From Halocaridina rubra (taxonomy: Eukaryota > Arthropoda > Malacostraca > Decapoda > Atyidae), in assembly GCA_037179515.1 (NCBI GenBank), contig JAXCGZ010005692.1, forward strand, positions 23,501 to 87,500: a DNA stretch of 64,000 nt, given 5' to 3'. Made by a program: the position numbers and the translations under genes. Positions 348 through 64,000 of the stretch are shown one piece after another; position 1 is the stretch's first letter, and every line of letters starts with the position of its first letter. Under the pieces are notes generated by a model that did not search any database, was not told where the DNA came from, and saw only the letters and a list, made by a program, of their open reading frames with translations.

Positions 348-348
348 A

Positions 349-42378: not shown

Positions 42379-42467
42379 ATAAACCTTTGTGCTCTAATAA
42401 AGTGAAATTATTCTAAGGTGTTGTGATTATTATGCATGAGGTTTCTTGTAATTGTGTGTGTGCGTGT

Positions 42468-43354
42468 GATTACCTAATTGTGATTACCTAATTGTGTTTA
42501 CGGGAAAGAGCCCAAAGCTCGTATCTTCCCGTCTCCTGATCGGTTCCATTTTATATTTAGTGATACTTATCATACCTGTCCTTAAAACTATGGATTGAGA
42601 TAGCATTAACTACCTCCTCGCTTAGCCAATTCAAATTATCAACTACTCTTACACTGAAAAAGTATTTTCTTACATCCTGCAAAGAAGTTTTCTTACGAAG
42701 CTTCAAACTATGACCTCTAGTTCTAGAGCCAGCCATATCAAAATATCGATCCCTATCCACTCTATCATAACCATGAAGGAATTTAAAGACTGTCACCATA
42801 TCCCCCCTCACTCTTCTAGCTTCGAGTGATGGTAAGTCTAATTCCCTCAGCCTCTCATCATAACTGAGATTGCGTATTTCTGGCACCAGTTTCGTGGCAT
42901 GTCTTTGAACTTTTTCAAGCTTAGCTATGTGCTTTTTCAAGTGCGGATTCCAAAAGGGGGCTGCATATTCGAGTTTTGGCCTCACATAGGTTACATAAAT
43001 ATTTCTCAACATTTCCTTGTCCATGTGCCTGAAGGCTACCCTTACATTTGATAAGAATGCATATGCTGCCCTTGCTATGCCATTTATATGTATTTCTGGA
43101 GACAAATCTGCCAATATGTTTACTCCTAGATCTCTCTCATTTTCTGTCTCTTGAAGTTGTACTCCAGCCACCGAGTAGTCAAGCTTGGGCCTTCTTGCAC
43201 TTGTACCCATTCTCATTACCTTACATTTTGAAGTATTGAATTTCATTAGCCACTTTTCTGACCACTCATGCAGATTATTTAGATCCTCCTGAAGTTCTCT
43301 ACCATTGTTCTCGTTTTTTACTTTCTTCACAATCTTTGCATTATCTGCAAACAT
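42468..43354 (-). mobile_element. LINE-B copy B3
   Basis: 5'-truncated inside the FADD motif (junction at 43354, where MFADNAKIV replaces FADDAKIV). The frame is open to the stop at 42557 and the 3' UTR ends in two 14-bp terminal motifs, then CACACGCACACAC (42454-42467 on the plus strand as TG). Its 5' side meets the 3' end of B4 with a 6-bp filler. Confidence 0.93.
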
Positions 43355-43360
43355 CTACCG

Positions 43361-43741
43361 TGTGATTACCTAATTGTGATTACCTAATTGTGTTTACGGG
43401 AAAGAGCCCAAAGCTCGTATCTTCCCGTCTCCTTATCGGTTCCATTTTATACTTAGTGATACTTATCATACCTGTCCTTAAAACTATGGATTGAGATAGC
43501 ATTAACTACCTCCTCGCTTAGCCAATTCCAATTATCAACTACTCTTACACTGAAAAAGTATTTCCTTACATCCTGCAAAGAAGTTTTCTTACGAAGCTTC
43601 AAACTATGACCTCTAGTTCTAGAGCCAGCCATATCAAAATATCGATCCCTATCCACTCTATCATAACCATGAATGAATTTAAAGACTGTCACCATATCCC
43701 CCCTCACTCTTCTAGCTTCGAGTGATGGTAAGTCTAATTCC
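43361..43741 (-). mobile_element. LINE-B copy B4, short
   Basis: Only the last ~95 ORF2 codons (stop at 43453) and the 3' UTR with two terminal motifs. The 5' junction ('gaattagac') lies directly on CA-rich sequence at 43742-43760. Confidence 0.93.
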
Positions 43742-43760
43742 TGTGTGAGTGTGTGTGTGT

Positions 43761-43863
43761 GATTACCTAATTGTGCTTACCTAATTGTGTTTACGGGAAA
43801 GAGCCCAAAGCTCGTATCTTCCCGTCTCCTGATCGGTTCCATTTTATACTTAGTGATACTTAT
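43761..43863 (-). mobile_element. LINE-B copy B5, 103 bp
   Basis: The shortest copy: the last ORF2 codons, the stop and the 3' UTR only, with CA-rich sequence on both sides. One terminal motif carries a C for T change (GTGCTTACCTAATTGTG on the plus strand). Confidence 0.92.
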
Positions 43864-43914
43864 GTGTGTGTTTGTTTGTGTGTGAGTTTGTGCTTGTGTG
43901 TGTGTGTGTGTGAG

Positions 43915-43976
<62 letters not shown>
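43864..43976. repeat. (TG)n with TTTG variants, then (TA)n
   Basis: TG/TTTG/GAGT variants at 43864-43921 are followed by about 28 TA units. In element orientation this is the 5' flank of B5. Confidence 0.93.
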
Positions 43977-43978
<2 letters not shown>

Positions 43979-44210: not shown

Positions 44211-44530
44211 TCATTACTTAATTGTGCTCACGCAGAAGTATTTTGCTTGTAACTCCCATCTCATGTCTTTTTTTTTTTCAATATTAAACTGACACTTATC
44301 ACCCCTTTCCTTAAAATTATCAATGCATGCATATATACCCATACATATACATTGGCTTCGATCCCCTTGTAAGGGGGTGGCAGAGTCAGACCACACATAC
44401 ACCAGCAGTCAATGCATTTAGCATTTACAAATCCTCGCCTAGCGAATACCAATTATCAACAATTCTTACGCTAAATATAGTATTTTTATACACGTTGCAA
44501 AGAAGTCTTCTCAAGAAAATTCAAATTGTG
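44211..44530 (-). mobile_element. LINE-B copy B6, old and diverged
   Basis: Antisense LINE-B 3' end with many substitutions, interrupted by an 80-bp insertion (44329-44408). Its 5' end abuts the (CA)n tail of B7. Confidence 0.8.
44329..44408 (-). mobile_element. 80-bp insertion with 9-bp TSD inside B6
   Basis: The direct repeat TCAATGCAT at 44320-44328 and 44409-44417 flanks the insert, and LINE-B homology is continuous across it when removed. The insert contains 'ccccttgtaagggggtggc', matching the terminal part of family C in antisense, so it looks like a very short 5'-truncated LINE copy. Confidence 0.65.
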
Positions 44531-44532
44531 AT

Positions 44533-44539
44533 GTGTGTG

Positions 44540-44612
<73 letters not shown>
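44533..44612. repeat. (TG)n between B6 and B7
   Basis: About 40 TG units with one GCG interruption; the (CA)n tail of B7 in element orientation. Confidence 0.95.
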
Positions 44613-44614
<2 letters not shown>

Positions 44615-46242
44615 TTACCTAATTGTGATTACCTAATTGTGTTTACGGGAAAGAGCCCAAAGCTCGTATCTTCCCGTCTCCTGATCGGTTCCATTTTTAG
44701 ACTTAGTGATACTTATCATACCTGTCCTTAAAACTATGGATTGAGGTAGCATTAACTACCTCCTCGCTTAGCGAATTCCAATTATCAACTACTCTTACAC
44801 TGAAAAAGTATTTCCTTACATCCTGCAAACAAGTTTTCTTCCGAAGCTTCAAACTATGACCTCTAGTTCTAGAGCCAGCCATATCGAAATATCGATCCCT
44901 ATCCACTCTATCATAACCATGAAGGAATTTAAAGACTGTCACCATATCCCCCCTTACTCTTCTAGCTTCGAGTGATGGCAAGTCTAATTCCCTCAGCCTC
45001 TCATCATAACCGAGATTGCGTATTTCTGGCACCAGTTTCGTGGCATGTCTTTGAACTTTTTCAAGCTTAGCTATGTGCTTTTTCAAGTGCGGATTCCAAA
45101 AGGGGGCTGCATATTCGAGTTTTGGCCTCACATAGGTTACATAAATATTTCTCAACATTTCCTTGTCCATGTGCCTGAAGGCTACCCTTACATTTGATAA
45201 GAATGCATATGCTGCCCTTACTACGCCATTTATATGTATTTCTGGAGACAAATCTGCCAATATGTTTACTCCTAGATCTCTCTCATTTTCTGTCTCCTGA
45301 AGTTGTACTCCAGCCACCGAGTAGTCAAGCTTGGGCCTTCTTGCACTTGTACCCATTCTCATTACCTTACATTTTGAGGTATTGAATTTCATTAGCCACT
45401 TTTCTGACCACTCATGCAGATTATTTAGATCCTCCTGAAGTTCTCTACCATTGTTCTCGTTTTTTACTTTCTTCACAATCTTTGCATCATCTGCAAACAT
45501 ATTCATGAATGAATTTACAGACTCTGGTAGGTCATTTACATATACAAGGAACAAAAGTGGCCCTAAAACTGAACCCTGTGGAACTCCACTACTAACTCTT
45601 CTCCATTCAGACACTGAGTGTCGTACTCTAACCCTCTGTTCCCTTCCTTCTAAGTAAGTTTTTATCCATTCCAAGACATTTCCACCTATTCTAGCCATTG
45701 ATTGCAGCTTCCTAATAAGTCTCCCATGTGGAACAGTGTCAAACGCTTTCTGGAAGTCTAGGAATATGCAATCTGCCCAGCCCTCTCTTTCCTGTAAGAT
45801 TTGGCTTACCTCATCATAAAATTCTAATAAGTTTGTTACTGTTGATCTTCCTTCTCTGAAGCCATGTTGCCTCACTGACAAAAAGTTGAAGGATTCCAAG
45901 TGAAGAGAGATATGTTTCCTTAGTAGTTTCTCCATAAGTTTGCAAACTATGCTGGTCAAGGAAACTGGTCTATAGTTCAGAGCCGTATCCCTCCTTCCCT
46001 TTTTGAAGATAGGTATCACATTTGCTTGTTTCCAGCATCTTGGAATCTCCCCCGACTCCAATGACTCCTTAAATATGATACTTAGTGCCACTGATATTGT
46101 GTTTGCGCATTTTTTAAGCACATGAGGGGATATGTCATCAGGACCTGTAGCTTTATGAACATCTAAATCCATCAGCGCTTTGCATACCTCTGTGGCTGTA
46201 AGGTTGATGTTCTCTAATACCGGCCCTTGAGCTTCTATCACT
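44613..46242 (-). mobile_element. LINE-B copy B7 with intact RT-half frame
   Basis: 5'-truncated just before the reverse-transcriptase domain. The frame is open for about 513 codons to the stop at 44703, with DISPHVLKK, NYRPVSLTS, FLDFQKAFD, SGVPQGSVLGPLLF, MFADDAKIV and the C-terminal region. Upstream codons from 46277 belong to flanking sequence. The 5' flank is itself the 3' end of a diverged copy. Confidence 0.93.
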
Positions 46243-46245
46243 TCT

Positions 46246-46540: not shown

Positions 46541-46542
46541 TG

Positions 46543-46608
<66 letters not shown>
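46541..46608. repeat. (TC)n then (AC)n at the 5' edge of B8
   Basis: About 16 TC units, TTTCAA, then about 16 AC units ending directly at the B8 truncation point. Confidence 0.95.
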
Positions 46609-46611
<3 letters not shown>

Positions 46612-47500
46612 AATATGTTTGCAGATGATGCAAAGATTGTGAAGAAAGTAAAAAACGAGAACAATGGTAGAGAACTTCAGGAGGATCTAAATAATCTGCA
46701 TGAGTGGTCAGAAAAGTGGCTAATGAAATTCAATACCTCAAAATGTAAGGTAATGAGAATGGGTACAAGTGCAAGAAGGCCCAAGCTTGACTACTCGGTG
46801 GCTGGAGTACAACTTCAAGAGACAGAAAATGAGAGAGATCTAGGAGTAAACATACTGGCAGATTTGTCTCCAGAAATACATATAAATGGCGTAGTAAGGG
46901 CAGCATATGCATTCTTATCAAATGTAAGGGTAGCCTTCAGGCACATGGACAAGGAAATGTTCAGAAATATTTATGTAACCTATGTGAGGCCAAAACTCGA
47001 ATATGCAGCCCCCTTTTGGAATCCGCACTTGAAAAAGCACATAGCTAAGCTTGAAAAAGTTCAAAGACATGCCACGAAACTGGTGCCAGAAATACGCAAT
47101 CTCGGTTATGATGAGAGGCTGAGGGAATTAGACTTGCCATCACTCGAAGCTAGAAGAGTAAGGGGGGATATGGTGACAGTCTTTAAATTCCTTCATGGTT
47201 ATGATAGAGTGGATAGGGATCGATATTTCGATATGGCTGGCTCTAGAACTAGAGGTCATAGTATGAAGCTTCGTATGAAAACTTCTTTGCAGGATGTAAG
47301 GAAATACTTTTTCAGTGTAAGAGTAGTTGATAATTGGAATTGGTTAAGCGAGGAGGTAGTAAATGCTATCTCAATCCATAGTTTTAAGGACAGGTACGAT
47401 AAGTATCACTAAGTCTAAAATGGAACCGATCAGGAGACGGGAAGATACGAGCTTTGGGCTCTTTCCCGTAAACACAATTAGGTAATCACAATTAGGTAAT
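46609..47500 (+). mobile_element. LINE-B copy B8
   Basis: It starts with ATGAATATGTTTGCAGATGA (the MNMFADD segment) right after (AC)n. The frame is open to TAA at 47410-47412, then 3' UTR and two terminal motifs. Confidence 0.94.
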
Positions 47501-47552
<52 letters not shown>

Positions 47553-47567
47553 CACACACACACACAC
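47501..47567. repeat. (CA)n linking B8 to B9
   Basis: CA run with one AAA and one GCA interruption. Confidence 0.96.
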
Positions 47568-48582
47568 TAGAGTAAGACACTCAGTGTCTGAATGGAGAAG
47601 AGTTAGTAGTGGAGTTCCACAGGGTTCAGTTTTAGGGCCACTTTTGTTCCTTGTATATGTAAATGACCTACCAGAGTCTGTAAATTCATTCATGAATATG
47701 TTTGCAGATGATGCAAAGATTGTGAAGAAAGTAAAAAACGAGAACAATGGTAGAGAACTTCAGGAGGATCTAAATAATCTGCATGAGTGGTCAGAAAAGT
47801 GGCTAATGAAATTCAATACTTCAAAATGTAAGGTAATGAGAATGGGTACAAGTGCAAGAAGGCCCAAGCTTGACTACTCGGTGGCTGGAGTACAACTTCA
47901 AGAGACAGAAAATGAGAGAGATCTAGGAGTAAACATACTGGCAGACTTTACTCCAGAAATACATATAAATGGCATAGTAAGGGCAGCATATGCATTCTTA
48001 TCAAATGTAAGGGTATTCTTCAGGCACATGAACAAGGAAATGTTCAGAAATATTTATGTAACCTATGTGAGGCCAAACCTCGAATATGCAGCCCCCTTTT
48101 GGAATCCGCACTTGAAAAAGCACATAGCTAAGCTTGAAAAAGTTCAAAGACATGCCACGAAACTGGTGCCAGAAATACGTAATCTCAGTTATGATGAGAG
48201 GCTGAGGGAATTAGACTTACCATCACTCGAAGCTAGAAGAGTGAGGGGGGATATGGTGACAGTCTTTAAATTCCTTCATGGTTATGATAGAGTGGATAGG
48301 GATCGATATTTTGATATGGCTGGCTCTAGAACTAGAGGTCATAGTTTGAAGCTTCGTAAGAAAACTTCTTTGCAGGATGTAAGGAAATACTTTTTCAGTG
48401 TAAGAGTAGTTGATAATTGGAATTCGCTAAGCGAGGAGGTAGTTAATGCTATCTCAATCCATAGTTTTAAGGACAGGTATGATAAGTATCACTAAGTATA
48501 ATATGGAACCGATCATGAGATGGGAAGATACGATCTTTGGGCTCTTTCCCGTAAACACAATTAGGTAATCACAATTAGGTAA

Positions 48583-48584
<2 letters not shown>
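47568..48584 (+). mobile_element. LINE-B copy B9
   Basis: It starts at TAGAGTAAGACACTCAGTG (RVRHSVSEW segment) immediately after (CA)n. The frame is open through SGVPQGSVLGPLLF and FADD to the stop at 48493-48495; two terminal motifs. Confidence 0.94.

Positions 48585-48646
<62 letters not shown>
48585..48646. repeat. (CA)n tail of B9
   Basis: About 31 CA units. Confidence 0.96.
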
Positions 48647-48648
<2 letters not shown>

Positions 48649-48777
48649 ATATTTGTTGTATGACGAGACTGTCCATATTAAAGGAAAAAAAATTAGAACA
48701 TTTTCGTGAGGGGAGAGAGAAGCTGCCGTCCAGTTCTGCCTTGAAGGAAATCTAGAAGAGTTGCCAGAGGTGGAGCC

Positions 48778-51700
48778 ATCACATCACATTAAATACACAA
48801 ATGCTGATGGATTAGCTGATAAGGCAGTAGAATTAAAAGATAGGATTCACAACAGTAAGGCAGATATAGTAGCAATTACAGAGACTAAGTTGAGTGAGGA
48901 CATAAACAGTGTCACAGTTTTTCCTAGGGGCTTCAGAATACTAAGGGTTGAAAGATCTGAGAGGACTGGTGGAGGGATAGCACTGCTCATAAGTGAGAGG
49001 ATTCAAGTTGAAGAAATAAACTTGGCTATAGAAAGTGAGTTCAAGGAATTTCTTGTTGCTCGCATAAATACTGGGTCAGAGAGCATTATAATAACTGTTG
49101 TATACAACCCACCAAGGAACCAAAATAGGCTTGAAGTTTATGAGGAAAGTCATATAGGTGCTATTGAAGTCATAAACTCAATTGTTAACATGGCACGGGA
49201 AAAAAAATGTAGGATTTTGATTATGGGAGACTTTAATCATAAAGAGATAGATTGGATAAATCTTGACCCACACAGTGGTGAGGACTCATTCAGGGCAAGA
49301 TTCCTAGATTGCGTACAAGGGAATTTCCTACACCACCATGTAATGGAACCAACAAGGGCCAGGGGAGGGGATGAGCCATCACTACTTGATCTAGTGTTCA
49401 CAGATAATGTGCTGGATATTGAAAATATTGAGTATGAACCACCAATTGGAAAGAGTGACCACTGTGTGTTGTTGATGGAGTATGTCATTGAAGATATTCT
49501 TCCTGAGAGTAGAGGCACTGAGGACATGAGGAGGAACTATCTGAAAGGAGATTACATCAAAATGAATGAGCTTTTTGCAGTTATTGACTGGAGAACCTTA
49601 TTTTACAACAAATCTGTACAAGAAATGTATGACATCTTTTGTGAGAAATATGGGTAGATAGTAGATTGCTGCATACCTGTCACCAAAGTAGGTGTAATTC
49701 ATGCCAGAGAGAAATGGTTCGATAATGGGTGTAAAAGAGCTAAGGAGTGGAGAGACAAATGCTGGAAAAGGTATAGGAGGAGAAAAAACATAAATGCCTG
49801 GCAAACCTACAAAAGAGCAAGAAATGACTACCTAAGTAAAAGGAGAGAGGCAGAGAGAGATTATGAGAGGGACATCACCAGGAAGGCTAAAGAAAATCCC
49901 AAGCTTTTCCACAGCTTTATCAGAGGAAAACTGAAGGTAAAAGAACAGGTTTTAAGGCTAAAGAGAGCGGATGGAAGCATCACTGACATGGATGAAGAGA
50001 TCTGCAAAGAATTGAACAAGGAGTTTCAGTCAGTATTTACAGTAGAAAATACCCCACCCCCTCAGATTGCAGTGATAGAAGCTCAAGGGCCTGTATTAGA
50101 GAACATCAATTTTACAGCCACAGAGGTATGCAAAGCGCTGATGGATTTAGATGTTCATAAAGCTACAGGTCCTGATGACATATCCCCTCATGTGCTTAAA
50201 AAATGCGCAAACACAATATCAGTGGCACTAGGTATCATATTTAAGGAGTCACTGGAGTCGGGGGAGATTCCAAGATGCTGGAAACAAGCAAATGTGATAC
50301 CTATCTTCAAAAAGGGAAGGAGGGATACGGCTCTGAACTATAGACCAGTTTCCTTGACCAGCATAGTTTGCAAAGTTATGGAGAAACTACCAAGGAAACA
50401 TATCTCTCTTCACTTGGAATCCTTCAACTTTTTGTCAGTGAGGCAACATGGCTTCAGAGAAGGTAGATCAACAGTAACAAACTTATTAGAATTTTATGAT
50501 GAGGTAAGCCAAATCTTACAGGAAAGAGAGGGCAGGGCAGATTGCATATTCCTAGACTTCCAGAAAGCGTTTGACACTGTTCCACATGGGAGACTTATTA
50601 GAAAGCTGCAAGCAATGGCTAGAATAGGTGGAAATGTTTTGGAATGGATAAAAACTTACTTAGAAGGAAGGGAACAGAGGCTTAGAGTAAGACACTCAGT
50701 GTCTGAATGGAGAAGAGTAAGTAGTGGAGTTCCACAGGGTTCAGTTTTAGGGCCACTTTTGTTCCTTGTATATGTAAATGACCTACCAGAGTCTGTATAT
50801 TCATTCATGAATATGTTTGCAGATGATGCAAAGATTGTGAAGAAAGTAAAAAACGAGAACAACGGAAGAGAACTTCAGGAGGATCTAAATAATCTGCATG
50901 AGTGGTCAGAAAAGTGGCTAATGAAATTCAATACTTCAAAATGTAAGGTAATGAGAATGGGTACAAGTGCAAGAAGGCCCAAGCTTGACTACTCGGTGGC
51001 TGGAGTACAACTTCAAGAGACAGAAAATGAGAGAGATCTAGGAGTAAACATACTGGCAGATTTGTCTCCAGAAATACATATAAATGGCATAGTAAGGGCA
51101 GCATATGCATTCTTATCAAATGTAAGGGTAGCCTTCAGGCACATGGACAAGGAAATGTTCAGAAATATTTATGTAACCTATGTGAGGCCAAAACTCGAAT
51201 ATGCAGCCCCCTTTTGGAATCCACACTTGAAAAAGCACATAGCTAAGCTTGAAAAAGTTCAAAGACATGCCACGAAACTGGTGCCAGAAATACGCAATCT
51301 CAGTTATGATGAGAGGCTGAGGGAATTAGACTTACCATCACTCGAAGCTAGAAGAGAGAGGGGGGATATGGTGACAGTCTTTAAATTCCTTCATGGTTAT
51401 GATAGAGTGGATAGGGATCGATATTTTTATATGGCTGGTTCTAGAACTAGAGGTCATAGTTTGAAGCTTCGTAAGAAAACTTCTTTGCAGGATGTAAGGA
51501 AATACTTTTTCAGTGTAAGAGTAGTTGATAATTGGAATTGGCTAAGCGAGGAGGTAGTTAATGCTATCTCAATCCATAGTTTTAAGGACAGGTATGATAA
51601 GTATCACTAAGTCTAAAATGGAACCGATCAGGAGACGGGAAGATATGAGCTTTGGGCTCCTTCCCATAAACACAATTAGGTAATCAAAATTAGGTAATCA
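48778..51700 (+). pseudogene. LINE-B copy B10, full ORF2 with a single nonsense codon
   Basis: Homology to B13 begins at TACACAAATGCTGATGGATT (YTNADGLA) and covers endonuclease and reverse transcriptase to the stop at 51608-51610. One in-frame TAG at 49655-49657 replaces the AAG (Lys) of B13 between the two domains; otherwise the frame is open. The 130 bp between the (CA)n and the homology start is unlike the ORF1 of B13. The second terminal motif is mutated (AAAATTAGGTAATC). Confidence 0.92.
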
Positions 51701-51705
51701 CACAC

Positions 51706-52387
51706 GAGACAGAAAATGAGAGAGATCTAGGAGTAAACATACTGGCAGATTTGTCTCCAGAAATACATATAAATGGCATAGTAAGGGCAGCATATGCATT
51801 CTTATCAAATGTAAGGGTATTCTTCAGGCACATGGACAAGGAAATGTTCAGAAATATTTATGTAACCTATGTGAGGCCAAAACTCGAATATGCAGCCCCC
51901 TTTTGGAATCCGCACTTGAAAAAGCACATAGCTAAGCTTGAAAAAGTTCAAAGACATGCCACGAAACTGGTGCCAGAAATACGCAATCTCAGTTATGATG
52001 AGAGGCTGAGGGAATTAGACTTACCATCACTCGAAGCTAGAAGATTGAGGGGGGGATATGGTGACAGTCTTTAAATTCCTTCATGGTTATGATAGAGTGG
52101 ATAGGGATCGATATTTTGATATGGCTGGCTCTAGAACTAGAGGTCATAGTTTGAAGCTTCGTAAGAAAACTTCTTTGCAGGATGTAAGGAAATACTTTGT
52201 CAGTGTAAGAGTAGTTGAGAATTGGAATTCGCTAAGCGAAGAGGTAGTTAATGCTATCTCAATCAATAGTTTTAAGGACAGGTATGATAAGTATCACTAA
52301 GTATAAAATGGAACCGATGAGGAGAGGGGAAGATACGAGCTTTGGGCTCTTTCCCGTAAACACAATTAGGTAATCACAATTAGGTAA

Positions 52388-52388
<1 letters not shown>
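51706..52388 (+). mobile_element. LINE-B copy B11
   Basis: It starts at GAGACAGAAAATGAGAGAGA after only about three CA units of the B10 tail. One extra G in a G run near 52051 (GGGGGG) shifts the frame between LEARR and GDMV. Stop at 52298-52300; two terminal motifs. Confidence 0.93.

Positions 52389-52420
<32 letters not shown>
52389..52420. repeat. (CA)n linking B11 to B12
   Basis: About 16 CA units ending in ACAATATCAG, so CACA may be shared with the start of B12 (microhomology). Confidence 0.95.
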
Positions 52421-52422
<2 letters not shown>

Positions 52423-53888
52423 ATCAGTGGCATTAAATATCATATTTAAGGAGTCACTGGAGCCGGGGGAGATTCCAAGATGCTGGAAACAAGCAAATGT
52501 GATACCTATCTTCAAAAAGGGAAGGAGGGATAAGGCTCTGAACTATAGACCAGTTTCCTTGACCAGCATAGTTTGCAAAGTTATGGAGAAACTACCAAGG
52601 AAACATATCTCTCTTCACTTGGAATCCTTCAACTTTTTGTCAGTGAGGCAACATGGCTTCAGAGAAGGTAGATCAACAGTAACAAACTTATTAGAATTTT
52701 ATGATGAGATAAGCCAAATCTTACAGGAAAGAGAGGGCTGGGCAGATTGCATATTCCTAGACTTCCAGAAAGCGTTTGACACTGTTCCACATGGGAGACT
52801 TATTAGGAAGCTGCAATCAATGGCTAGAATAGGTGGAAATGTTTTGGAATGGATAAAAACTTACTTAGAAGGAAGGGAACAGAGGGTTAGAGTAAGACAC
52901 TCAGTGTCTGAATGGAGAAGAGTTAGTAGTGGGGTTCCACAGGGTTCAGTTTTAGGGCCACTTTTGTTCCTTGTATATGTAAATGACCTACCAGAGTCTG
53001 TAAATTCATTCATGAATATGTTTGCAGATGATGCAAAGATTGTGAAGAAAGCAAAAAACGAGAATAATGGTAGAGAACCTCAGGAGGATCAAAATTATCT
53101 GCATGAGTGGTCAGAAAAGTGGCTAATGAAATTCAATACTTCAAAATGTAAGGTAATGAGAATGGGTACAAGTGCAAGAAGGCCCAAGCTTGACTACTCG
53201 GTGGCTGGAGTACAACTTCAAGAGACAGAAAATGAGAGAGATCTAGGAGTAAACATACTGGCAGATTTGTCTCCAGAAATACATATAAATGGCATAGTAA
53301 GGGCAGCATATGCATTCTTATCAAATGTAAGGGTAGCCTTCAGGCACATGGACAAGGAAATGTTCAGAAATATTTATGTAACCTATGTGAGGCCAAAACT
53401 CGAATATGCAGCCCCCTTTTGGAATCCGCACTTGAAAAAGCACATAGCTAAGCTTGAAAAAGTTCAAAGACATGCCACGAAACTGGTGCCAGAAATACGC
53501 AATCTCAGTTATGATGAGAGGCTTAGGGAATTAGACTTACCATCACTCGAAGCTAGAAGATTGAGTGGTGATATGGTGACAGTCTTTAAATTCCTTCATG
53601 GTTATGATAGAGTGGATAGGGATCGATATTTTGATGTGGCTGGTTCTAGAACTAGAGGTCATAGTTTGAAGCTTCGTAAGAAAACTTCTTTGCAGGATGT
53701 AAGGAAATACTTTTTCAGTGTAAGAGTAGTTGATAATTAGAATTCGCTAAGCGAGGAGGTAGTTAATGCTATCTCAATCCATAGTTTTAAGAACAGGTAT
53801 GATAAGTATCACTATGTATAAAATGGAACCAATCAGGAGACGGGAAGATACGATCTCTGGGCTCTTTCCCGTTAACACAATTAGGTAA

Positions 53889-53889
<1 letters not shown>
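52419..53889 (+). pseudogene. LINE-B copy B12
   Basis: It starts at the ISVAL-like segment before the RT and is open through FLDFQKAFD and FADD to a premature TAG at 53738-53740 (TGG, Trp, in other copies). It has extra replacement changes (KKAKNENNGREPQEDQNYLH) and only one terminal motif. Confidence 0.93.

Positions 53890-53966
<77 letters not shown>
53890..53966. repeat. (CA)n linking B12 to B13
   Basis: About 38 CA units ending directly at the open ORF1 frame of B13. Confidence 0.96.
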
Positions 53967-53969
<3 letters not shown>

Positions 53970-54758
53970 GATAAAAACAAACAGCTAAATGACAACCTAA
54001 AGGAATTAGATGTTAGTTCACTGCTATCTTCTGAGAGAGACGAGATTGCTGCTTGGAATGTTCAGATTAAGGAAAACATTGAACAGTTCAGAAAAGAGTT
54101 CCAGGAGCTGAATATGGAAAATGATGCCATGAAAACGTCCTTTGCTGATGCACTAAAGGGGAATGTGGCAGTAAAAGAGGCTGTAAAGGTGGTGGCACTG
54201 GAAAACATACAAACAGTTGACTATAAAGAGACAGTAATCGAAAAAATGAAAGACGTTGTGATGGAAAGGGCAAACCCACTCATCAGACAGGCACTTGATA
54301 AGGAGAAGACAGTGGTAATCTCAGGCATAAGTGAATCCCAGGAGCCAACATGGCAGGGGAGACTTGAAGAAAATAAAGCTAGGGTTGTAGACCTGATAAG
54401 AAAGCTTGGAGTAGTATGTGGTCCTGAGGATATTGTAAACATACACCAACTAGGTAAATATTCGAGGGAAGGAAAGCCGAGACCAACAAAAGTAACCTTT
54501 GAGAGAGGGGAGACATGTAGGGAAATATTGTTGAGAAAAAAAAGTCTAAAAGACCTTCAAGAATGCAAAGAAGTGTTCATTAGACGATACAGAACACAGG
54601 AAGAGATGGGAAAGATCAAAAACTTGTTGCAAGAGGCAAGAAGGTTAAATGATGAAAGAAATGAAGAAGAGAAGAAAAATTTTCGTTACGGAATACTTCC
54701 AGACAAAGGGGAGATAAAGAAGATAATGACAGAAGATCAGGGGATGGGGCCTCATTAA
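53967..54758 (+). CDS. LINE-B ORF1 (RNA-binding protein), 5'-truncated
   Basis: The frame is open for 263 codons from the (CA)n boundary to TAA; the first ATG (54114) is 50 codons in, but the open, charged sequence before it (KELDVSSLLSSERDEIAAW) looks like coiled coil of the same protein, so the true start is lost. An RRM-like part begins near KTVVISGI (about 65 residues after the ATG) and includes KPRPTKVTFE and EVFIRRYRTQEE, as in LINE ORF1 proteins that coat the element RNA. The stop lies in 'cctcattaag', a few bases before ORF2 homology begins. Confidence 0.8.
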
Positions 54759-54760
54759 GA

Positions 54761-57583
54761 TTGTTATACACAAATGCTGATGGATTAGCTGGTAAGGCAG
54801 TAGAATTAAAAGATAGGATTCACAACAGTAAGGCATATATAGTAGCAATTACAGAGACTAAGTTGAGTGAGGACATAAACAGTGTCACAGTTTTTCCTAA
54901 GGGCTTCAGAATACTAAGGGTCGAAAGATCTGAGAGGACTGGTGGAGGGATAGCACTGCTCATAAGTGAGAGGATTCAAGTTGAAGAGATAAACTTGGCT
55001 ATAGAAAGTGAGTTCAGGGAATTTCTTGTTGCTCGCATAAATACTGGGTCAGAGAGCATTATAATAACTGTTGTATACAACCCACCAAGGAACCAAAATA
55101 GGCTTGAAATTTATGAGGAAAGTCATATAGGTACGATTGAAGTCATAAACTCAGTTGTTAACATGGCGCGGGAGAAAAAATGTAGGATTTTGATTATGGG
55201 AGACTTTAATCATAAAGAGATAGATTGGATAAATCTTGACCCACACAGTGGTGAGGACTCCTTTGGGGCAAGATTCCTAGATTGCGTACAAGGGAATTTC
55301 CTACACCAACATGTAATGGAACCAACAAGAGCCAGGGGTGGGGATGAGCCATCACTACTTGATCTAGTGTTCACAGATAATGTGTTGGATATTGAAAATA
55401 TTGAGTATGAACCACCAATTGGAAAGAGTGACCACTGTGTGTTGTTGATGGAGTATATCATTGAAGACATTCTTCCTGAGAGTAGAGGCACTGAGGACAT
55501 GAGGAGGAACTATCAGAAAGGAGATTACATCAAAATGAATGAGCTTTTTGCAGTTATTGACTGGAGAACCTTATTTTACAACAAATCTGTACAAGAAATG
55601 TATGACATCTTTTGTGAGAAATATGGGAAGATAGTAGATTGCTGCATACCTGTCACCAAAGTAGGTGTAATTCATGCCAGAGAGAAATGGTTCGATAATG
55701 GGTGTAAAAGAGCTAAGGAGTGGAGAGACAAATGCTGGAAAAGGTATAGGAGGAGAAAAAACATAAATGCCTGGCAAACCTACAAAAGAGCAAGAAACGA
55801 CTACCTAAGTAAAAGGAGAGAGGCAGAGAAAGATTATGAGAGGGACATCACCAGGAAGGCTAAAGAAAATCCCAAGCTTTTCCACAGCTTTATCAGAGGA
55901 AAACTGAAGGTAAAAGAACAGGTTTTAAGGCTAAAGAGAGCGGATGGAAGCATCACTGAGACGGACGAAGAGATCTGCAAAGAATTGAACAAGGAGTTTC
56001 AGTCAGTATTTACAGTAGAAAATACCCCACCCCCTCAGATTGCAGTGATAGAAGCTCAAGGGCCGGTATTAGAGAACATCAACCTTACAGCCACAGAGGT
56101 ATGCAAAGCGCTGATGGATTTAGATGTTCATAAAGCTACAGGTCCTGATGACATATCCCCTCATGTGCTTAAAAAATGCGCAAACACAATATCAGTGGCA
56201 CTAAGTATCATATTTAAGGAGTCATTGGAGTCGGGGGAGATTCCAAGATGCTGGAAACAAGCAAATGTGATACCTATCTTCAAAAAGGGAAGGAGGGATA
56301 CGGCTCTGAACTATAGACCAGTTTCCTTGACCAGCATAGTTTGCAAACTTATGGAGAAACTACTAAGGAAACATATCTCTCTTCACTTGGAATCCTTCAA
56401 CTTTTTGTCAGTGAGGCAACATGGCTTCAGAGAAGGAAGATCAACAGTAACAAACTTATTAGAATTTTATGATGAGGTAAGCCAAATCTTACAGGAAAGA
56501 GAGGGCTGGGCAGATTGCATATTCCTAGACTTCCAGAAAGCGTTTGACACTGTTCCACATGGGAGACTTATTAGGAAGCTGCAATCAATGGCTAGAATAG
56601 GTGGAAATGTCTTGGAATGGATAAAAACTTACTTAGAAGGAAGGGAACAGAGGGTTAGAGAAAGACACTCAGTGTCTGAATGGAGAAGAGTTAGTAGTGG
56701 AGTTCCACAGGGTTCAGTTTTAGGGCCACTTTTGTTCCTTGTATATGTAAATGACCTACCAGAGTCTGTAAATTCATTCATGAATATGTTTGCAGATGAT
56801 GCAAAGATTGTGAAGAAAGTAAAAAACGAGAACAATGGTAGAGAACTTCAGGAGGATCTAAATAATCTGCATGAGTGGTCAGAAAAGTGGCTAATGAAAT
56901 TCAATACCTCAAAATGTAAGGTAATGAGAATGGGTACAAGTGCAAGAAGGCCCAAGCTTGACTACTCGGTGGCTGGAGTACAACTTCAAGAGACAGAAAA
57001 TGAGAGAGATCTAGGAGTAAACATATTGGCAGATTTGTCTCCAGAAATACATATAAATGGCGTAGTAAGGGCAGCATATGCATTCTTATCAAATGTAAGG
57101 GTAGCCTTCAGGCACATGGACAAGGAAATGTTCAGAAATATTTATGTAACCTATGTGAGGCCAAAACTCGAATATGCAGCCCCCTTTTGGAATCCGCACT
57201 TGAAAAAGCACATAGCTAAGCTTGAAAAAGTTCAAAGACATGCCACGAAACTGGTGCCAGAAATACGCAATCTCGGTTATGATGAGAGGCTGAGGGAATT
57301 AGACTTGCCATCACTCGAAGCTAGAAGAGTAAGGGGGGATATGGTGACAGTCTTTAAATTCCTTCATGGTTATGATAGAGTGGATAGGGATCGATATTTC
57401 GATATGGCTGGCTCTAGAACTAGAGGTCATAGTTTGAAGCTTCGGAAGAAAACTTGTTTGCAGGATGTAAGGAAATACTTTTTCAGTGTAAGAGTAGTTG
57501 ATAATTGGAATTGGCTAAGCGAGGAGGTAGTTAATGCTACCTCAATCCATAGTTTTAAGGACAGGTATGATAAGTATCACTAA
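54761..57583 (+). CDS. LINE-B ORF2: AP endonuclease and reverse transcriptase, intact
   Basis: 940 codons counted from the non-ATG codon at 54761; the frame is open further upstream into ORF1, so the initiation mode is unclear. Endonuclease: AITETKLSE, GGGIALLI, MGDFNHKEIDW (D148), LDLVFTDN and GKSDHC (D224-H225). A basic Lys/Arg-rich linker follows (about 325-390). Reverse transcriptase: NYRPVSLTS, HGFREG, FLDFQKAFD (D590), SGVPQGSVLGPLLF, FADD (D679-D680), then a C-terminal region with YVRPKLEYAAPFWNP. The protein nicks target DNA and copies element RNA from the nick. All catalytic residues are present. Confidence 0.92.
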   Translation: MLYTNADGLAGKAVELKDRIHNSKAYIVAITETKLSEDINSVTVFPKGFRILRVERSERTGGGIALLISERIQVEEINLAIESEFREFLVARINTGSESIIITVVYNPPRNQNRLEIYEESHIGTIEVINSVVNMAREKKCRILIMGDFNHKEIDWINLDPHSGEDSFGARFLDCVQGNFLHQHVMEPTRARGGDEPSLLDLVFTDNVLDIENIEYEPPIGKSDHCVLLMEYIIEDILPESRGTEDMRRNYQKGDYIKMNELFAVIDWRTLFYNKSVQEMYDIFCEKYGKIVDCCIPVTKVGVIHAREKWFDNGCKRAKEWRDKCWKRYRRRKNINAWQTYKRARNDYLSKRREAEKDYERDITRKAKENPKLFHSFIRGKLKVKEQVLRLKRADGSITETDEEICKELNKEFQSVFTVENTPPPQIAVIEAQGPVLENINLTATEVCKALMDLDVHKATGPDDISPHVLKKCANTISVALSIIFKESLESGEIPRCWKQANVIPIFKKGRRDTALNYRPVSLTSIVCKLMEKLLRKHISLHLESFNFLSVRQHGFREGRSTVTNLLEFYDEVSQILQEREGWADCIFLDFQKAFDTVPHGRLIRKLQSMARIGGNVLEWIKTYLEGREQRVRERHSVSEWRRVSSGVPQGSVLGPLLFLVYVNDLPESVNSFMNMFADDAKIVKKVKNENNGRELQEDLNNLHEWSEKWLMKFNTSKCKVMRMGTSARRPKLDYSVAGVQLQETENERDLGVNILADLSPEIHINGVVRAAYAFLSNVRVAFRHMDKEMFRNIYVTYVRPKLEYAAPFWNPHLKKHIAKLEKVQRHATKLVPEIRNLGYDERLRELDLPSLEARRVRGDMVTVFKFLHGYDRVDRDRYFDMAGSRTRGHSLKLRKKTCLQDVRKYFFSVRVVDNWNWLSEEVVNATSIHSFKDRYDKYH

Positions 57584-57674
57584 GTCTAAAAATGGAACCG
57601 ATCAGGAGACGGGAAGATACGAGCTTTGGGCTCTTTCCCGTAAACACAATTAGGTAATCACAATTAGGTAATCA

Positions 57675-57693
57675 CACACACACACATACACAC
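57675..57693. repeat. Short CA-rich link between B13 and B14
   Basis: CACACACACACATACACAC; the next base starts LINE-B copy B14. Confidence 0.93.
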
Positions 57694-58600
57694 GTAAATT
57701 CATTCATGAATATGTTTGCAGATGATGCAAAGATTGTGAAGAAAGTAAAAAACGAGAACAATGGTAGAGAACTTCAGGAGGATCTAAATAATCTGCATGA
57801 GTGGTCAGAAAAGTGGCTAATGAAATTCAATACCTCAAAATGTAAGGTAATGAGAATGGGTACAAGTGCAAGAAGGCCCAAGCTTGACTACTCGGTGGCT
57901 GGAGTACAACTTCAAGAGACAGAAAATGAGAGAGATCTAGGAGTAAACATATTGGCAGATTTGTCTCCAGAAATACATATAAATGGCGTAGTAAGGGCAG
58001 CATATGCATTCTTATCAAATGTAAGGGTAGCCTTCAGGCACATGGACAAGGAAATGTTCAGAAATATTTATGTAACCTATGTGAGGCCAAAACTCGAATA
58101 TGCAGCACCCTTTTGGAATCCGCACTTGAAAAAGCACATAGCTAAGCTTGAAAAAGTTCAAAGACATGCCACGAAACTGGTGCCAGAAATACGCAATCTC
58201 GGTTATGATGAGAGGCTGAGGGAATTAGACTTGCCATCACTCGAAGCTAGAAGAGTAAGGGGGGATATGGTGACAGTCTTTAAATTCCTTCATGGTTATG
58301 ATAGAGTGGATAGGGATCGATATTTCGATATGGCTGGCTCTAGAACTAGAGGTCATAGTTTGAAGCTTCGTAAGAAAACTTGTTTGCAGGATGTAAGGAA
58401 ATACTTTTTCAGTGTAAGAGTAGTTGATAATTGGAATTGGTTAAGCGAGGAGGTAGTTAATGCTATCTCAATCCATAGTTTTAAGGACAGGTACGATAAG
58501 TTTCACTAAGTTTAAAAATGGAACCGATCAGGAGACGGGAAGATACGAGCTTTGGGCTCTTTCCCGTAAACACAATTAGGTAATCACAATTGGGTAATCT
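57694..58600 (+). mobile_element. LINE-B copy B14
   Basis: It starts at GTAAATTCATTCATGAATAT just upstream of the FADD motif. The frame is open to TAA at 58507-58509. It shares the KKTCLQDV variant with B13 and B7. Two terminal motifs, the second altered (AATTGGGTAATC). Confidence 0.94.
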
Positions 58601-58896
<296 letters not shown>

Positions 58897-59215: not shown

Positions 59216-59431
59216 CTAAGCGAGAAAAAAATTAGATGACAATTATTGATAATAATCTATAAAGCATTTCCTTGGGTAAACCCAATTACTCCATGGTAAC
59301 ACGTAAGTAATACTAAGAATAATTATCTATATTAAGCCTTCTGATTAGGGAATATTATCTCTCTATTTTTTTAAGATATTTATCACAATTTGTTGGAACA
59401 TATTTAGCGTAAACAAAATACTATATGTGTG

Positions 59432-62384
59432 TAATTACCTAATTGTAATTACCTAATTGTGTTTACGAGAAAGAGCCCAAAGCTCGTATCTTTCCGTCTC
59501 CGGATCGGTTCCATTTTGTACTTAGTGATACTTATCATACCTGTCCTTATAACTATTGATTGAGATAGCATTAACTACCTCCTCGCTTAGCAAATTCTAA
59601 TTATCAACTACTCTTACATTGAAAAAGTATTTCCTTACCTCCTGCAAATAAGTTTTCTTACGAAAATTCAAACTATAACCTCTAGTTCTAGAGCCAGCCA
59701 TATCAAAATATCGATCCCTATCCACTCTATCATAACCATGAAGGAATTTAAAGACTGTCACCATATCCACTTCAATCTTCTAGCTTCGAGTGATGGTAAG
59801 TCTAATTCCCTCAGCCTCTCATCATACCTGAGATTGCGTATTTCTGGCACCAGTTTCGTGGCATGTCTTTGAACTTTTTCAAGCTTAGCTATGTGCTTTT
59901 TCAAGTGCGGATTCCAAAAGGGGGCTGCATATTCGAGTTTTGGCCTCATATAGGTTACATAAATATTTCTGAACATTTCCTTGTCCATGTGCCTGAAGGC
60001 TACCCTTACATTTGATAAGAATGCATATGCTGCCCTTACTATGCCATTTATATGTATTTCTGGAGACAAATCTGCCAGTATGTTTACTCCTAGATCTCTC
60101 TCATTTTCTGTCTCTTGAAGTTGTACTCCAGCCACCGAGTAGTCAAGCTTAGGCCTTCTTGCACTTGTACCCATTCTCATTACCTTACATTTTGAAGTAT
60201 TGAATTTCATTAGCCACTTTTCTGACCACTCATGCAGATTATTTAGATCTTTCTGAAGTTCTCTACCATTGTTCTCGTTTCTTACTTTCTTCACAATCGT
60301 TGTATCATCTGCAAACATATTCATGAATGAATTTACAGACTCTGGTAGGTCATTTACATATACAAGGAACAAAAGTGGCCCTAAAACTGAACCCTGTGGA
60401 ACTCCACTACTAACAATTCTCCATTCAGACACTGAGTGTCTTACTCTAACCCCCTGTTCCCTTCCTTCTAAGTAAGTTTTTATCCATTCCAAGACATTTC
60501 CACCTATTCTAGCCTTTGCTTCCTAATAAGTCTCCCATGTGGAACAGTGTCAAACGCTTTCTGGAAGTCTAGGAATATGCAATCTGCCCAGCCCTCTCTT
60601 TCCTGTAAGATTCGGCTTATCTCATCATAGAATTCTAATAAGTTTGTTACTGTTGATCTACCTTCTCTGAAGTCATGTTGCTTCACTGACAAAAAGTTGA
60701 AGGATTCCAAGTGAAGAGAGATATGTTTCCTTAGTAGTTTCTCCATAACTTTGCAAACTATGCTGGTCAAGGAAACTGGTCTATAGTTCAGAGCCGTGTC
60801 CCTCCTTCCCTTTTTGAAGATAGGTATCACGCTTGCTTGTTTCCAGCATCTTGGAATCTCCCCTGACTCCAGTGATATTTTAAATATGATACTTAGTGCC
60901 ACTGATATTGAGTTTGCGCATTTTCTAAGTACATGAGGGGATATGTCATCAGGACCTGTAGCTTTATGAACATCTAACTCCATCAGCGCTTTGCATACCT
61001 CTGTGGCTGTAAGGTTAATGTTCTCTAATACTGACCCTTGAGCTTCTATCTCTGCAATCTGAGGAGGTGGGGTATTTTCTACTGTAAATACTGACTGAAA
61101 CCCCTTGTTCAATTCTTTGCAGATCTCTTCGTCCGTCTCAGTGATGCTTCCATCCGCTCTCTTAAGCCTTAAAACCTGTTCTTTTACCTTCAGTTTTCTT
61201 CTGATAAAGCTGTGGAAAACCTTGGGATTGTTTTTAGCCTTTCTGGTGATGTCCCTCTCGTAGTCTTTCTCTGCCTCTCTTCTTTTACTTAGGTAGTCAT
61301 TTCTTGCTCATTTGTAGGTTTGCCAGGCATTTATGTTTTTTCTCCTCCTATACCTTTTCCAGCATTTGTCTCTCCACTCCTTAGCTCTTTTACACTCATT
61401 ATCGAACCATTTCTCTCTGGCATGAATTACACCTACTTTGGTGAAAGGTATGCAGCAATCTACTATCTTTCCATATTTCTCACAAAAAATGTCATACATT
61501 TCTTGTACAGATTTGTTGTAAAATAAAGTTCTCCAGTCAATAACTGCAAACAGCTCATTCATTTTGATGTAATCTCCTTTCGGATAGTTCCTCCTCATGT
61601 CCTCAGTGCCTCTACTCTCAGGAAGAATATCTTCAATGATATACTCCATCAACAACACACAGTGGTCACTCTTTCCAATTGGTGGTTCATACTCATTTTT
61701 TTCAATATCCAACACATTATCTGTGAACACTAGATCAAGTAGTGATGGCTCATCCCCACCCCTGGCCCTCGTTGGTTCAATTACATGTAGGAATCTTGCC
61801 CCGAATGAGTCCTCACCACTGTGTGGGTCAAGATTTATCCAATCTATCTCTTTATGATTAAAATCTCCAATAATCAAAATCCTACATTTTCTCTCCCGTG
61901 CCATGTTAACAACTGAGTTTATGACTTCAATAGTTGCCTATATGACTTTCCTTATATACTTCTAGCCTATTCTGGTTCCTTGGTGGGTTATATACAACAG
62001 TTATTATAATGCTCTCTGACCCAGTATTTATGCGAGCAACAAGAAATTCCTTGAACTCACTTTCTATAACCAAGTTTATTTCTTCAACTTGAATCCTTTC
62101 ACTTATGAGCAGTGTTATCCCTCCACCAGTCCTCTCAGATCTTTCAACCCTTAATATTCTGAAGCCCTTAGGAAAAACTGTGACACTGTTTATGTCCTCA
62201 CTCAACTTAGTCTCTGTAATTGCTACTATATATGCCTTACTGTTGTGAATCCTATCTTTTAATTCTACTGCATTACCAGCTACTCCATCAGCATTTGTGT
62301 ATAACAATCTTAATGAGGCCCCCATCCCCTGATCTTCTATCATTATCTTCTTTATCTCCTCTTTGTCTAGAAGAACTCTGAAAT
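59432..62384 (-). pseudogene. LINE-B copy B15, nearly full ORF2, multiply disrupted
   Basis: It contains the end of ORF1 (FRVLLDKEEIKKI), endonuclease, RT and 3' UTR. Damage includes a frameshift near 61915, an in-frame 33-bp deletion near 61787 that removes residues between FL and EPTRARG, a TGA at about 61306 (AGA in B13), a disruption near 60500 and a shift near 59770. At the ORF1/ORF2 junction it has five Gs where B13 has four, and there ORF1 and ORF2 are in one continuous frame. Its 5' end sits on the (CA)n of B16. Confidence 0.92.
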
Positions 62385-62402
62385 GAGTGTGTGTGTGTGT
62401 GT
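62385..62402. repeat. (TG)n linking B16 to B15
   Basis: About nine TG units; in element orientation, the (CA)n tail of B16 and the 5' flank of B15. Confidence 0.94.
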
Positions 62403-64000
62403 GATTACCTAATTGTGATTACCTAATTGTGTTTACGGGAAAGAGCCCAAAGCTCGTATCTTCCCGTCTCCTGATCGGTTCCATTTTAGACTTAGTGATA
62501 CTTATCGTACCTGTCCTTAAAACTATGGATTGAGATAGCATTAACTACCTCCTCGCTTAGCCAATTCCAATTATCAACTACTCTTACACTGAAAAAGTAT
62601 TTCCTTACATCCTGCAAAGAAGTTTTCTTACGAAGCTTCAAACTATGACCTCTAGTTCTAGAGCCAGCCATATCGAAATATCGATCCCTATCCACTCTAT
62701 CATAACCATGAAGGAATTTAAAGACTGTCACCATATCCCCCCTTACTCTTCTAGCTTCGAGTGATGGCAAGTCTAAGTCCCTCAGCCTCTCATCATAACC
62801 GAGATTGCGTATTTCTGGCACCAGTTTCGTGGCATGTCTTTGAACTTTTTCAAGCTTAGCTATGTGCTTTTTCAAGTGCGGATTCCAAAAGGGGGCTGCA
62901 TATTCGAGTTTTGGCCTCACATAGGTTACATAAATATTTCTGAGCATTTCCTTGTCCATGTGCCTGAAGGCTACTCTTACATTTGATAAGAATGCATATG
63001 CTGCCCTTACTACGCCATTTATATGTATTTCTGGAGACAAATCTGCCAGTATGTTTACTCCTAGATCTCTCTCATTTTCTGTCTCTTGAAGTTGTACTCC
63101 AGCCACCGAGTAGTCAAGCTTGGGCCTTCTTGCACTTGTACCCATTCTCATTACCTTACATTTTGAGGTATTGAATTTCATTAGCCACTTTTCTGACCAC
63201 TCATGCAGATTATCTAGATCCTCCTGAAGTTCTCTACCATTGTTCTCGTTTTTTACTTTCTTCACAATCTTTGCATCATCTGCAAACATATTCATGAATG
63301 AATTTACAGACTCTGGTAGGCCATTTACATATACAAGGAACAAAAGTGGCCCTAAAACTGAACCCTGTGGAACTCCACTACTAACTCTTCTCCATTCAGA
63401 CACTGAGTGTCTTACTCTAACCCTCTGTTCCCTTCCTTCTAAGTAAGTTTTTATCCATTCCAAGACATTTCCACCTATTCTAGCCATTGATTGCAGCTTC
63501 CTAATAAGTCTCCCATGTGGAACAGTGTCAAACGCTTTCTGGAAGTCTAGGAATATGCAATCTGCCCAGCCCTCTCTTTCCTGTAAGATTTGGCTTACCT
63601 CATCATAAAATTCTAATAAGTTTGTTACTGTTGATCTTCCTTCTCTGAAGCCATGTTGCCTCACTGACAAAAAGTTGAAGGATTCCAAGTGAAGAGAGAT
63701 ATGTTTCCTTAGTAGTTTCTCCATAAGTTTGCAAACTATGCTGGTCAAGGAAACTGGTCTATAGTTCAGAGCCGTATCCCTCCTTCCCTTTTTGAAGATA
63801 GGTATCACATTTGCTTGTTTCCAGCATCTTGGAATCTCCCCCGACTCCAGTGACTCCTTAAATATGATACTTAGTGCCACTGATATTGTGTTTGCGCATT
63901 TTTTAAGCACATGAGGGGATATGTCATCAGGACCTGTAGCTTTATGAACATCTAAATCCATCAACGCTTTGCATACCTCTGTGGCTGTAAGGTTGATGTT
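62403..64000 (-). mobile_element. LINE-B copy B16, open frame to the window end
   Basis: 3' UTR with two terminal motifs, stop at 62492, then an uninterrupted frame upstream through the C-terminal region, FADD, FLDFQKAFD and the DISPHVLKK region to the window end. The 5' part lies outside. Small differences (VNGLPES, LQEDLDNLH, RDLDLPS) set it apart from B7. Confidence 0.93.

Follow-up and report, generated by a model that had tools for sequence, protein, structure and literature searches.

Some long interspersed nuclear elements (LINEs) are tied to microsatellites. In the portions of the published accounts that are available, Mino elements of the R1 clade insert into AC repeats (PMC3124438), the NeSL-related Togen is specific for (TG)n microsatellites (PMC4640811), and target-specific LINEs with an apurinic endonuclease (APE)-type enzyme are assigned to the Tx1 and R1 clades (PMC4640811). 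Lepidopteran RTE elements give rise to microsatellites (Tay et al. 2010, PMC2887409); the available part of that report states that they insert without sequence specificity and that the repeat arises within the target duplications of the element, and handles the targeting and the making of simple sequence repeats (SSRs) as separate cases. For penaeid shrimp, an extract of PMC7878876 calls transposons carriers of SSR expansion. Here we describe LINE-B, a LINE of the decapod Halocaridina rubra (Atyidae) that forms head-to-tail arrays on CA repeats in a stretch of 64,000 nucleotides (GCA_037179515.1, contig JAXCGZ010005692.1, positions 23,501 to 87,500 of the forward strand; hereafter the window).

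Insertion of one copy upon another is also familiar. The poly(A) tail of one Alu copy serves as the target of the next, insertion hotspots are said to have been described by Levy and colleagues in 2010, and HeT-A/TART elements form head-to-tail arrays at Drosophila telomeres. According to the accessible parts of two further papers, the inverted-to-direct ratio of full-length Alu pairs with spacers of up to 24 bp is 0.073 (PMC3215922), and Zepp of green algae forms nested clusters (PMC3446292).

Like Mino and Togen, as far as their available descriptions go, LINE-B inserts into CA/TG microsatellites. It has an APE-type endonuclease where Togen is an element with a restriction-like endonuclease (RLE), and it differs from R1 elements such as Mino in that no CCHC knuckles were found; zinc knuckles of this kind are carried by the target-specific LINEs of the Tx1 and R1 clades. 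Self-built arrays are a feature of LINE-B and are not described for Mino or Togen in the accessible text of PMC3124438 and PMC4640811. With lepidopteran RTE elements, judging from the part of their description at hand, it shares a 3' end tied to many genomic microsatellites and an abundance of 5'-truncated copies, but unlike them it targets microsatellites, with a target retained or renewed at its own end. The tail-on-tail insertion of human Alu/L1 is similar in that the tail of one copy is the target of the next, although in LINE-B the target is a CA run rather than poly(A) and this is a common fate of the tail (12 of 20 sampled ends). Head-to-tail, same-strand and variably truncated copies are a trait of array-forming LINEs such as Zepp and HeT-A that is also found in LINE-B; the LINE-B arrays differ from those of Zepp and HeT-A/TART in their link to CA runs, and they are found on many contigs. 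No CR1-type LINE combining CA targeting with self-seeding arrays was recognised in the literature searched, by title and abstract opening. CA-targeting LINEs are already known; LINE-B is one whose own end renews the target, at genome scale. Very probably, its arrays are built by target-primed insertion at CA runs, with its own end (TCACA) acting as a renewed target.

Insertion of LINE-B into a CA run of a second LINE

The window belongs to a 1.18-Gb assembly that also contains LINE-A, a related LINE with the same domain types, whose reverse transcriptase (RT) part is 43% identical to that of LINE-B over 593 residues. One sampled LINE-B end (L085) sits in an antisense LINE-A copy, and the corresponding empty site is CTACTGGCACACACGAGGCAGC. 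We searched the genome for LINE-B ends with the adjoining LINE-A sequence no more than 14 nt away, and found the end joined to the antisense LINE-A CACACAC at 66 places on 64 contigs, against a random expectation of about 0.43 and none in a backwards control. The sense-orientation equivalent at the same CACACAC is absent genome-wide (0). These junctions, for which the empty site is known, are the strongest support for the suggestion in the preliminary description that LINE-B inserts into (CA)n.

Of the 66 junctions, 64 are identical (GGTAATCACACGAGG) and gain no CA beyond that of the target. Seven were read further (L091–L097); the 5' end is visible in 4, with truncation points that all differ (positions 4735, 4570, 4780, and 4707 of the reference), while 3 extend past the fetched stretch. 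LINE-A lies on both sides at L091, L094, and L096, where the 5' flanks are GGCACA, GGCA, and GGCACACAC. A 3' junction that stays fixed while the 5' side varies is what target-primed reverse transcription would produce if the second cut were loose. Given the 64 junctions without added CA, the LINE-B RNA probably has a short tail that ends near TCACA, and not in long (CA)n, so that little (CA)n is carried with it.

Preference for CA runs at independent 5' ends

Twenty 10-kb loci surrounding LINE-B ends were retrieved; they were drawn from the exact two-unit ends listed, and are therefore biased to that type of tail. Together with the window, they hold 108 LINE-B copies, 9 of which are cut at edges or gaps, leaving 99 readable 5' ends. 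As many as 65 of these adjoin another, similarly oriented LINE-B; the junction has a CA run of at least 6 nt in 43 cases and a tail that is short or of another kind in 22. The other 34 comprise 19 on CA without LINE-B and 15 on neither. Hand curation of these 34 removed L015-6122 and L016-4056 (tail junctions), L017-5112 (the latter half of a copy that is interrupted), and L020-1751 (a LINE-A match), and added the window copy B5, which chaining had merged with the older B5o, giving 31 independent 5' ends.

A sense-strand CA run of at least 8 nt is present at 16 of these 31 ends, and one of at least 10 nt at 12. In sequence outside LINE-B (the 20 loci and the window), by contrast, a CA run of at least 8 nt falls within a 20-nt span at 137 of 70,647 positions (0.19%), and one of at least 10 nt at 0.13% of positions. 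TG on the sense strand was found at none of the 31. These ends, at which no LINE-B tail is recognised upstream, support insertion of LINE-B into CA runs, and its orientation relative to the repeat is fixed, both here (CA sense 16, TG 0) and at the LINE-A site (66 vs 0). CA targeting is a strong preference, not a strict rule. Microhomology at 35 CA junctions averages 1.20 nt, compared with 0.35 nt at random truncation points; the alignment boundary itself may contribute about as much again.

Some copies lie elsewhere. Three sit in LINE-B bodies in opposite orientation (L012 4286–4695, L017 2437–5113, and L029 5518–5791), with 3' junctions that match the tail over 2–4 nt and duplications of about 1–5 nt, as read by eye. 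Another, at L020 5863, begins exactly where a LINE-A tail ends.

Same-strand arrays across the genome

Exact 38-nt LINE-B 3' ends number 25,095 in the genome (12,560 + 12,535; backwards control 0), spread over many contigs at about 21 per Mb. From the first 100 standard ends listed we sampled 20, about every fifth, and in 12 of them the 5' end of another LINE-B copy, oriented alike, follows within 42 bp. Consecutive ends within 5 kb, among the 100 matches listed, are on the same strand in 32 cases and on opposite strands in none.

Of the first 24 (CA)n arrays listed with a length of at least 19 nt, we inspected 20 and skipped four, some for closeness to another. A LINE-B tail precedes 16 of the 20; on the other side, a LINE-B 5' end comes next in 13, either immediately or after no more than about 20 nt, and (TA)n in 6. 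Genome-wide, CA arrays that start with C after a base other than A number 40,392, compared with 24,236 for the reversed pattern, as expected if many CA arrays start at the TCACA end of LINE-B. The preliminary description had all 3' ends running into (CA)n. This is the case for most window copies, but it needs narrowing for the genome as a whole, because in the 20 sampled ends the 38-nt sequence is followed by a CA run of 1–16 nt, which reaches 10 nt in only 5.

LINE-A provides a matched control. In the window it is represented by a copy at 8379..9939 (+) with a tail of TTCTTATG units, by a long copy at 12267..15345 (−) that served as the control reference, and by a 5'-truncated copy at 20515..21647 (+) with no CA at its 5' end. 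Its tail, like that of LINE-B, consists of short tandem units, and the genome contains 5,085 such ends (at most one mismatch). At 20 of these loci (L031–L050), with 96–247 bp visible past the tail, LINE-A never directly follows a LINE-A tail in the same orientation (0/20; Fisher's test against 12/20 for LINE-B, P = 4.5e-5). Likewise, none of 12 readable LINE-A 5' ends (10 in the loci and 2 in the window) lies on a LINE-A tail, compared with 65 of 99 for LINE-B (P = 1e-5), and a CA run is present at 1 of the 12, a short one (L038, 7 nt). This count excludes four further LINE-A 5' ends, none of them on CA, at L020, which had been retrieved as a LINE-B locus. LINE-A neighbors within 5 kb, among the matches listed, are on the same strand in 12 cases and on opposite strands in 8.

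Two side observations concern LINE-A itself. At L020 (1–5863), LINE-A copies are nested within one another in opposite orientation. The LINE-A 3' flanks lie in (AT)6 or longer at 4 of 20 loci, compared with 3.3% of positions in those loci, and LINE-A perhaps has a weaker repeat preference of its own.

Order of insertion and alternative explanations

The order in which copies arrived can be read where neighbors differ in identity to the reference copy. For example, a 98.1% copy sits on the tail of an 85.6% copy at L057, a 98.2% copy on that of an 87.8% copy at L058, and in the window the younger B16 (99.1%) adjoins the older B15 (94.5%). The identity gap is at least 3% in 14 of 66 neighboring pairs; 2 of the 14 are unreliable, as one compares the fast-diverging 5' untranslated region (UTR) and one merges B5 and B5o. 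The older copy is upstream in some pairs and downstream in others, which is consistent with copies having inserted repeatedly, into whichever CA block was available, and not in a single event. According to the preliminary description, the end of LINE-B creates (CA)n and so acts as a landing pad that seeds further insertions. The seeding is supported by the next copy lying directly on 12 of 20 sampled ends and by the 98% copies on 86–88% tails. The creation of (CA)n is not, since 64 of 66 LINE-A junctions add no CA. The element's own TCACA seems sufficient as an insertion target.

Several points weigh against repeated insertion at CA runs as the source of the arrays. Most neighboring pairs show no clear difference in age (52 of 66 of similar identity), and a CA run of at least 6 nt is lacking at 22 tail junctions out of 65, one of which (L011 1136) begins in a copy missing its last 54 nt. 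A CA run of at least 8 nt is also missing at 15 of the 31 independent 5' ends; three of these 15 are inside LINE-B bodies, one is on a LINE-A tail, and four belong to old copies (71–84%). At the LINE-A site, independence was read in only 7 of the 66 junctions, and L092 has sequence other than LINE-A at its 5' side. LINE-A ends cluster too (20 listed neighbors within 5 kb), but in mixed orientation. Finally, the loci were picked near LINE-B ends, the samples of neighbors and of (CA)n arrays were taken from the contigs at the head of the listings and are systematic rather than random draws, and the arrays are known from assembled contigs alone.

Template jumping, whereby the RT would leave one RNA early and jump to the 3' tail of another so that an array forms in one event, is an unlikely explanation. 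It has been described for the R2 reverse transcriptase (a reference in the available part of PMC2881922), and it would suit both the similar identity of the 52 pairs and the many tail junctions, within the set of 22 that lack 6 nt of CA, at which a bare ...GGTAATCAC is joined to the next copy. However, it leaves unexplained the 5' CA found without an upstream LINE-B tail (16/31) and the 66 matches at one CA run in LINE-A, and it is at odds with young copies on old tails. It also sits poorly with LINE-A, which forms no such arrays (0/20) despite the same domain types and a 43% identical RT.

Arrays could also be built after a first insertion, by tandem duplication or by unequal exchange involving CA tracts. 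We consider this very unlikely, and as the main cause it is contradicted by the 49 distinct truncation points (in bins of about 6 nt) among the 66 neighboring pairs. The truncation points in the window all differ, and the LINE-A site is again left unexplained. In its favor, units with the same truncation recur in L021 (q3135 twice; the q3063/q3417 sets), L028 (q3247 three times; q3508/q2699 three times), L013, and L019. Identical truncation points, named in the preliminary description as a possible sign of segmental duplication or assembly error, apply to part of the arrays only. Jumping and duplication were both named as alternatives in the preliminary description; duplication of units does occur in these four loci, and the two processes together contribute at most a part. 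L019 also contains an inverted copy of its repeated unit.

Even less credence attaches to the possibility that the element makes the (CA)n during reverse transcription, without target preference, as in the microsatellite-birth model for RTE elements. The LINE-B tail on 16 of 20 sampled (CA)n arrays would be in keeping with it, as would the excess of tail-like array starts (40,392 vs 24,236 in the reversed control). Such a process cannot place CA 5' of the copies, though, and 64 of 66 LINE-A junctions have no extra CA, while at least 10 nt of CA follow only 5 of 20 sampled tails. Least probable of all is that the arrays are assembly artefacts of a repeat-rich genome, since, despite N runs in 6 of the 20 fetched 10-kb loci (L011, L014, L016, L018, L023, and L027) and identical repeated units that could be mis-joined (L021 and L028), the junctions vary in truncation point, tail length, and identity, the neighbor orientations of LINE-B and LINE-A differ within the same assembly (32:0 vs 12:8, among the matches listed), and the LINE-A junction is short, exact, and on 64 contigs.

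Proposed mechanism

We propose that LINE-B, a LINE with two open reading frames (ORFs) and an APE-type endonuclease, inserts by target-primed reverse transcription with a preference for short CA runs. The endonuclease would nick the TG strand, and the freed end (...TG/GT) would pair with the CA-containing 3' end of the RNA (...GGTAATCACA) and prime cDNA synthesis. An early stop of reverse transcription would then account for the 5' truncation observed at varied points. The new copy would keep CA at its 5' side and have TCACA and the rest of the target run at its 3' side, which is the arrangement seen at the LINE-A site, and because of this the target would not be consumed—i.e. each insertion would leave a target on both sides. 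Later copies would land on older tails, as is the case for the young copies on old tails, and repeated use would give rise to head-to-tail arrays of one orientation. Long (CA)n tracts are probably, for the most part, original target sequence or products of later slippage, and local tandem duplication, as seen in 4 of 20 loci, would then copy some units.

A broader claim leaves us evenly divided, namely that LINE-B is an APE-type, CR1-like LINE outside Tx1/R1 whose CA specificity comes from pairing between the nicked TG strand and a CA-ended RNA, and that it acts as an autocatalytic landing pad owning most of the (CA)n arrays in the genome. The autocatalytic part would follow from each copy renewing the target at its end, so that the supply of targets grows with copy number.

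Structure and classification of LINE-B

The reference copy, B13 (53968..57676, +), is the longest uninterrupted copy in the window, and contains part of ORF1 and an ORF2 without a stop, with APE-type endonuclease and RT domains. ORF2 matches PF14529 and PF03372 (both APE-type, N-terminal) and RVT_1; at E 0.001, a Pfam scan of ORF2 returned no further domain and no restriction-like endonuclease after the RT. A longer copy at L018 has an ORF1 frame of 398 codons. Neither C-x2-C-x4-H-x4-C nor a looser Cys/His pattern was found in ORF2 of B13 or ORF1 of L018. The 3' end consists of 14-nt units (GTAATCACAATTAG), in about 2.6 copies (two to three), followed by CA. A 3' UTR hairpin common to old and young copies was considered and not used, as covariation was weak (1 of 7 pairs changed on both sides).

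Elements of the CR1 group (CR1, L2, and kin) have APE and RT domains, with neither RNase H nor CCHC, and end in short tandem repeats in place of poly(A). In those of the R1 clade, both ORF1 and the C-terminus of ORF2 carry CCHC knuckles. LINE-B has the APE endonuclease of R1-clade elements (Mino, Waldo, and TRAS), but their CCHC knuckles were not found, and the restriction-like endonuclease of the RLE clades (NeSL/Togen, R4/Dong, and HERO) is absent from its domain matches. Judged on these features of the CR1 group, LINE-B looks CR1-like by architecture and tail. A tandem-repeat 3' end is not universal in CR1, as butterfly CR1 carries poly(A) (PMC1925062, in the part available).

Matches of the LINE-B RT in the PDB are L1, R2, and more distant RTs. 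Protein relatives number 370, and the best of the 120 matches listed is 65% identical. The LINE-B DNA pattern was found in no viral contig (0) and in no phage, and matched 2 prokaryote contigs; a protein search of viral contigs returned no relative.

LINE-B copies in the window

The window contains 17 copies or part-copies of LINE-B and two older LINE-B-like 3' fragments, one at 12065–12266 (67% identity) and a degenerate one (about 62–65% identical) in the 5' flank of B6. The preliminary description listed eleven 5' junctions against CA-rich repeats; all are present, within a few bases of where they were placed and each with a different truncation point, and those of B10, B3, and the left-edge copy B0 can be added. 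One label was wrong: the junction at 44530, attributed to B6, is real, but the copy there is the older B5o at the tail of B6, whose own 5' end is at 46242. Sixteen window 5' ends are readable, and 13 of them lie on a CA run, interrupted in the case of B4 and B5. The remaining three belong to B3, which lies beside a CA run, to B6, which begins on an older relative's 3' end, and to B1, which begins on (TTA)n.

The plus-strand array starts at a (CA)15 target (46580..46609, +) that follows (TC)n and is not LINE-B derived as far as seen. Its first copy is the 5'-truncated B8 (46608..47504), followed by the 5'-truncated B9 (47568..48587) on the CA tail of B8, and by B10 (48645..51702), which begins on (CA)31. 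Next come B11 (51703..52392) on the short tail of B10 (TCACACAC) and B12 (52413..53893) on the (CA)16 tail of B11, both 5'-truncated, then B13 on (CA)39, and lastly the 5'-truncated B14 (57694..58602) on the CA tail of B13, after which follow (CA)13 and (AT)n. In B10, part of the 5' UTR (48647–48793) is fused to ORF2 through an internal deletion, the join lying near position 799 of the B13 reference. These 147 bp were also considered as foreign DNA, which was rejected because they match another locus as LINE-B's own 5' UTR; B10 is thus no exception. The L024 copy (1–2392) breaks at 790 of the reference, near the deletion point of B10, and resumes at 1587.

On the minus strand, B3 (42455..43354) is 5'-truncated and begins 5 nt past the TCACAC tail of B4 (43360..43741), itself 5'-truncated and on the CA tail of B5. 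The 5'-truncated B5 (43749..43863) lies on an interrupted (CA)n beside (AT)27, with no LINE-B tail upstream within reach. The old B5o (44419..44531, about 75%) adjoins the (CA)n tail of B6 (44596..46242), a copy 99.6% identical to B13 whose 3' end runs into (CA)33. Further along, B15 (59426..62386, 94.5%) has a broken reading frame and is adjoined at its 5' end by B16 (62387..64000), whose own 5' end is beyond the window. Near the left edge, B0 (1..21, −) is a 5' end running off the window, with 21 nt identical to B13, directly after (CA)n at 22–51; B1 (34..350, −) is an old copy (about 70%) with a (TTA)n 5' flank and (CA)n at its 3' side, an exception to the CA rule at 5' ends. B2 (3799..4369, +) is 5'-truncated, 90% identical, and on (CA)7 with no LINE-B seen upstream. 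Apart from these elements, the window has a degenerate tandem array with a 52-bp unit in about 12 copies (11173–11814).

Implications

LINE-B seems to join the targeting and the making of microsatellites, in that the target is renewed by each insertion. A single genome offers both a built-in control, LINE-A as a related element, and a built-in insertion assay, LINE-A as a second repeat into which LINE-B inserts. As such, the choice of target by LINEs, whether through the endonuclease or through pairing of the tail, becomes testable with LINE-B. For H. rubra, the element may explain much of the genome's (CA)n content, and (CA)n markers in this species call for caution, as they will often be multicopy.

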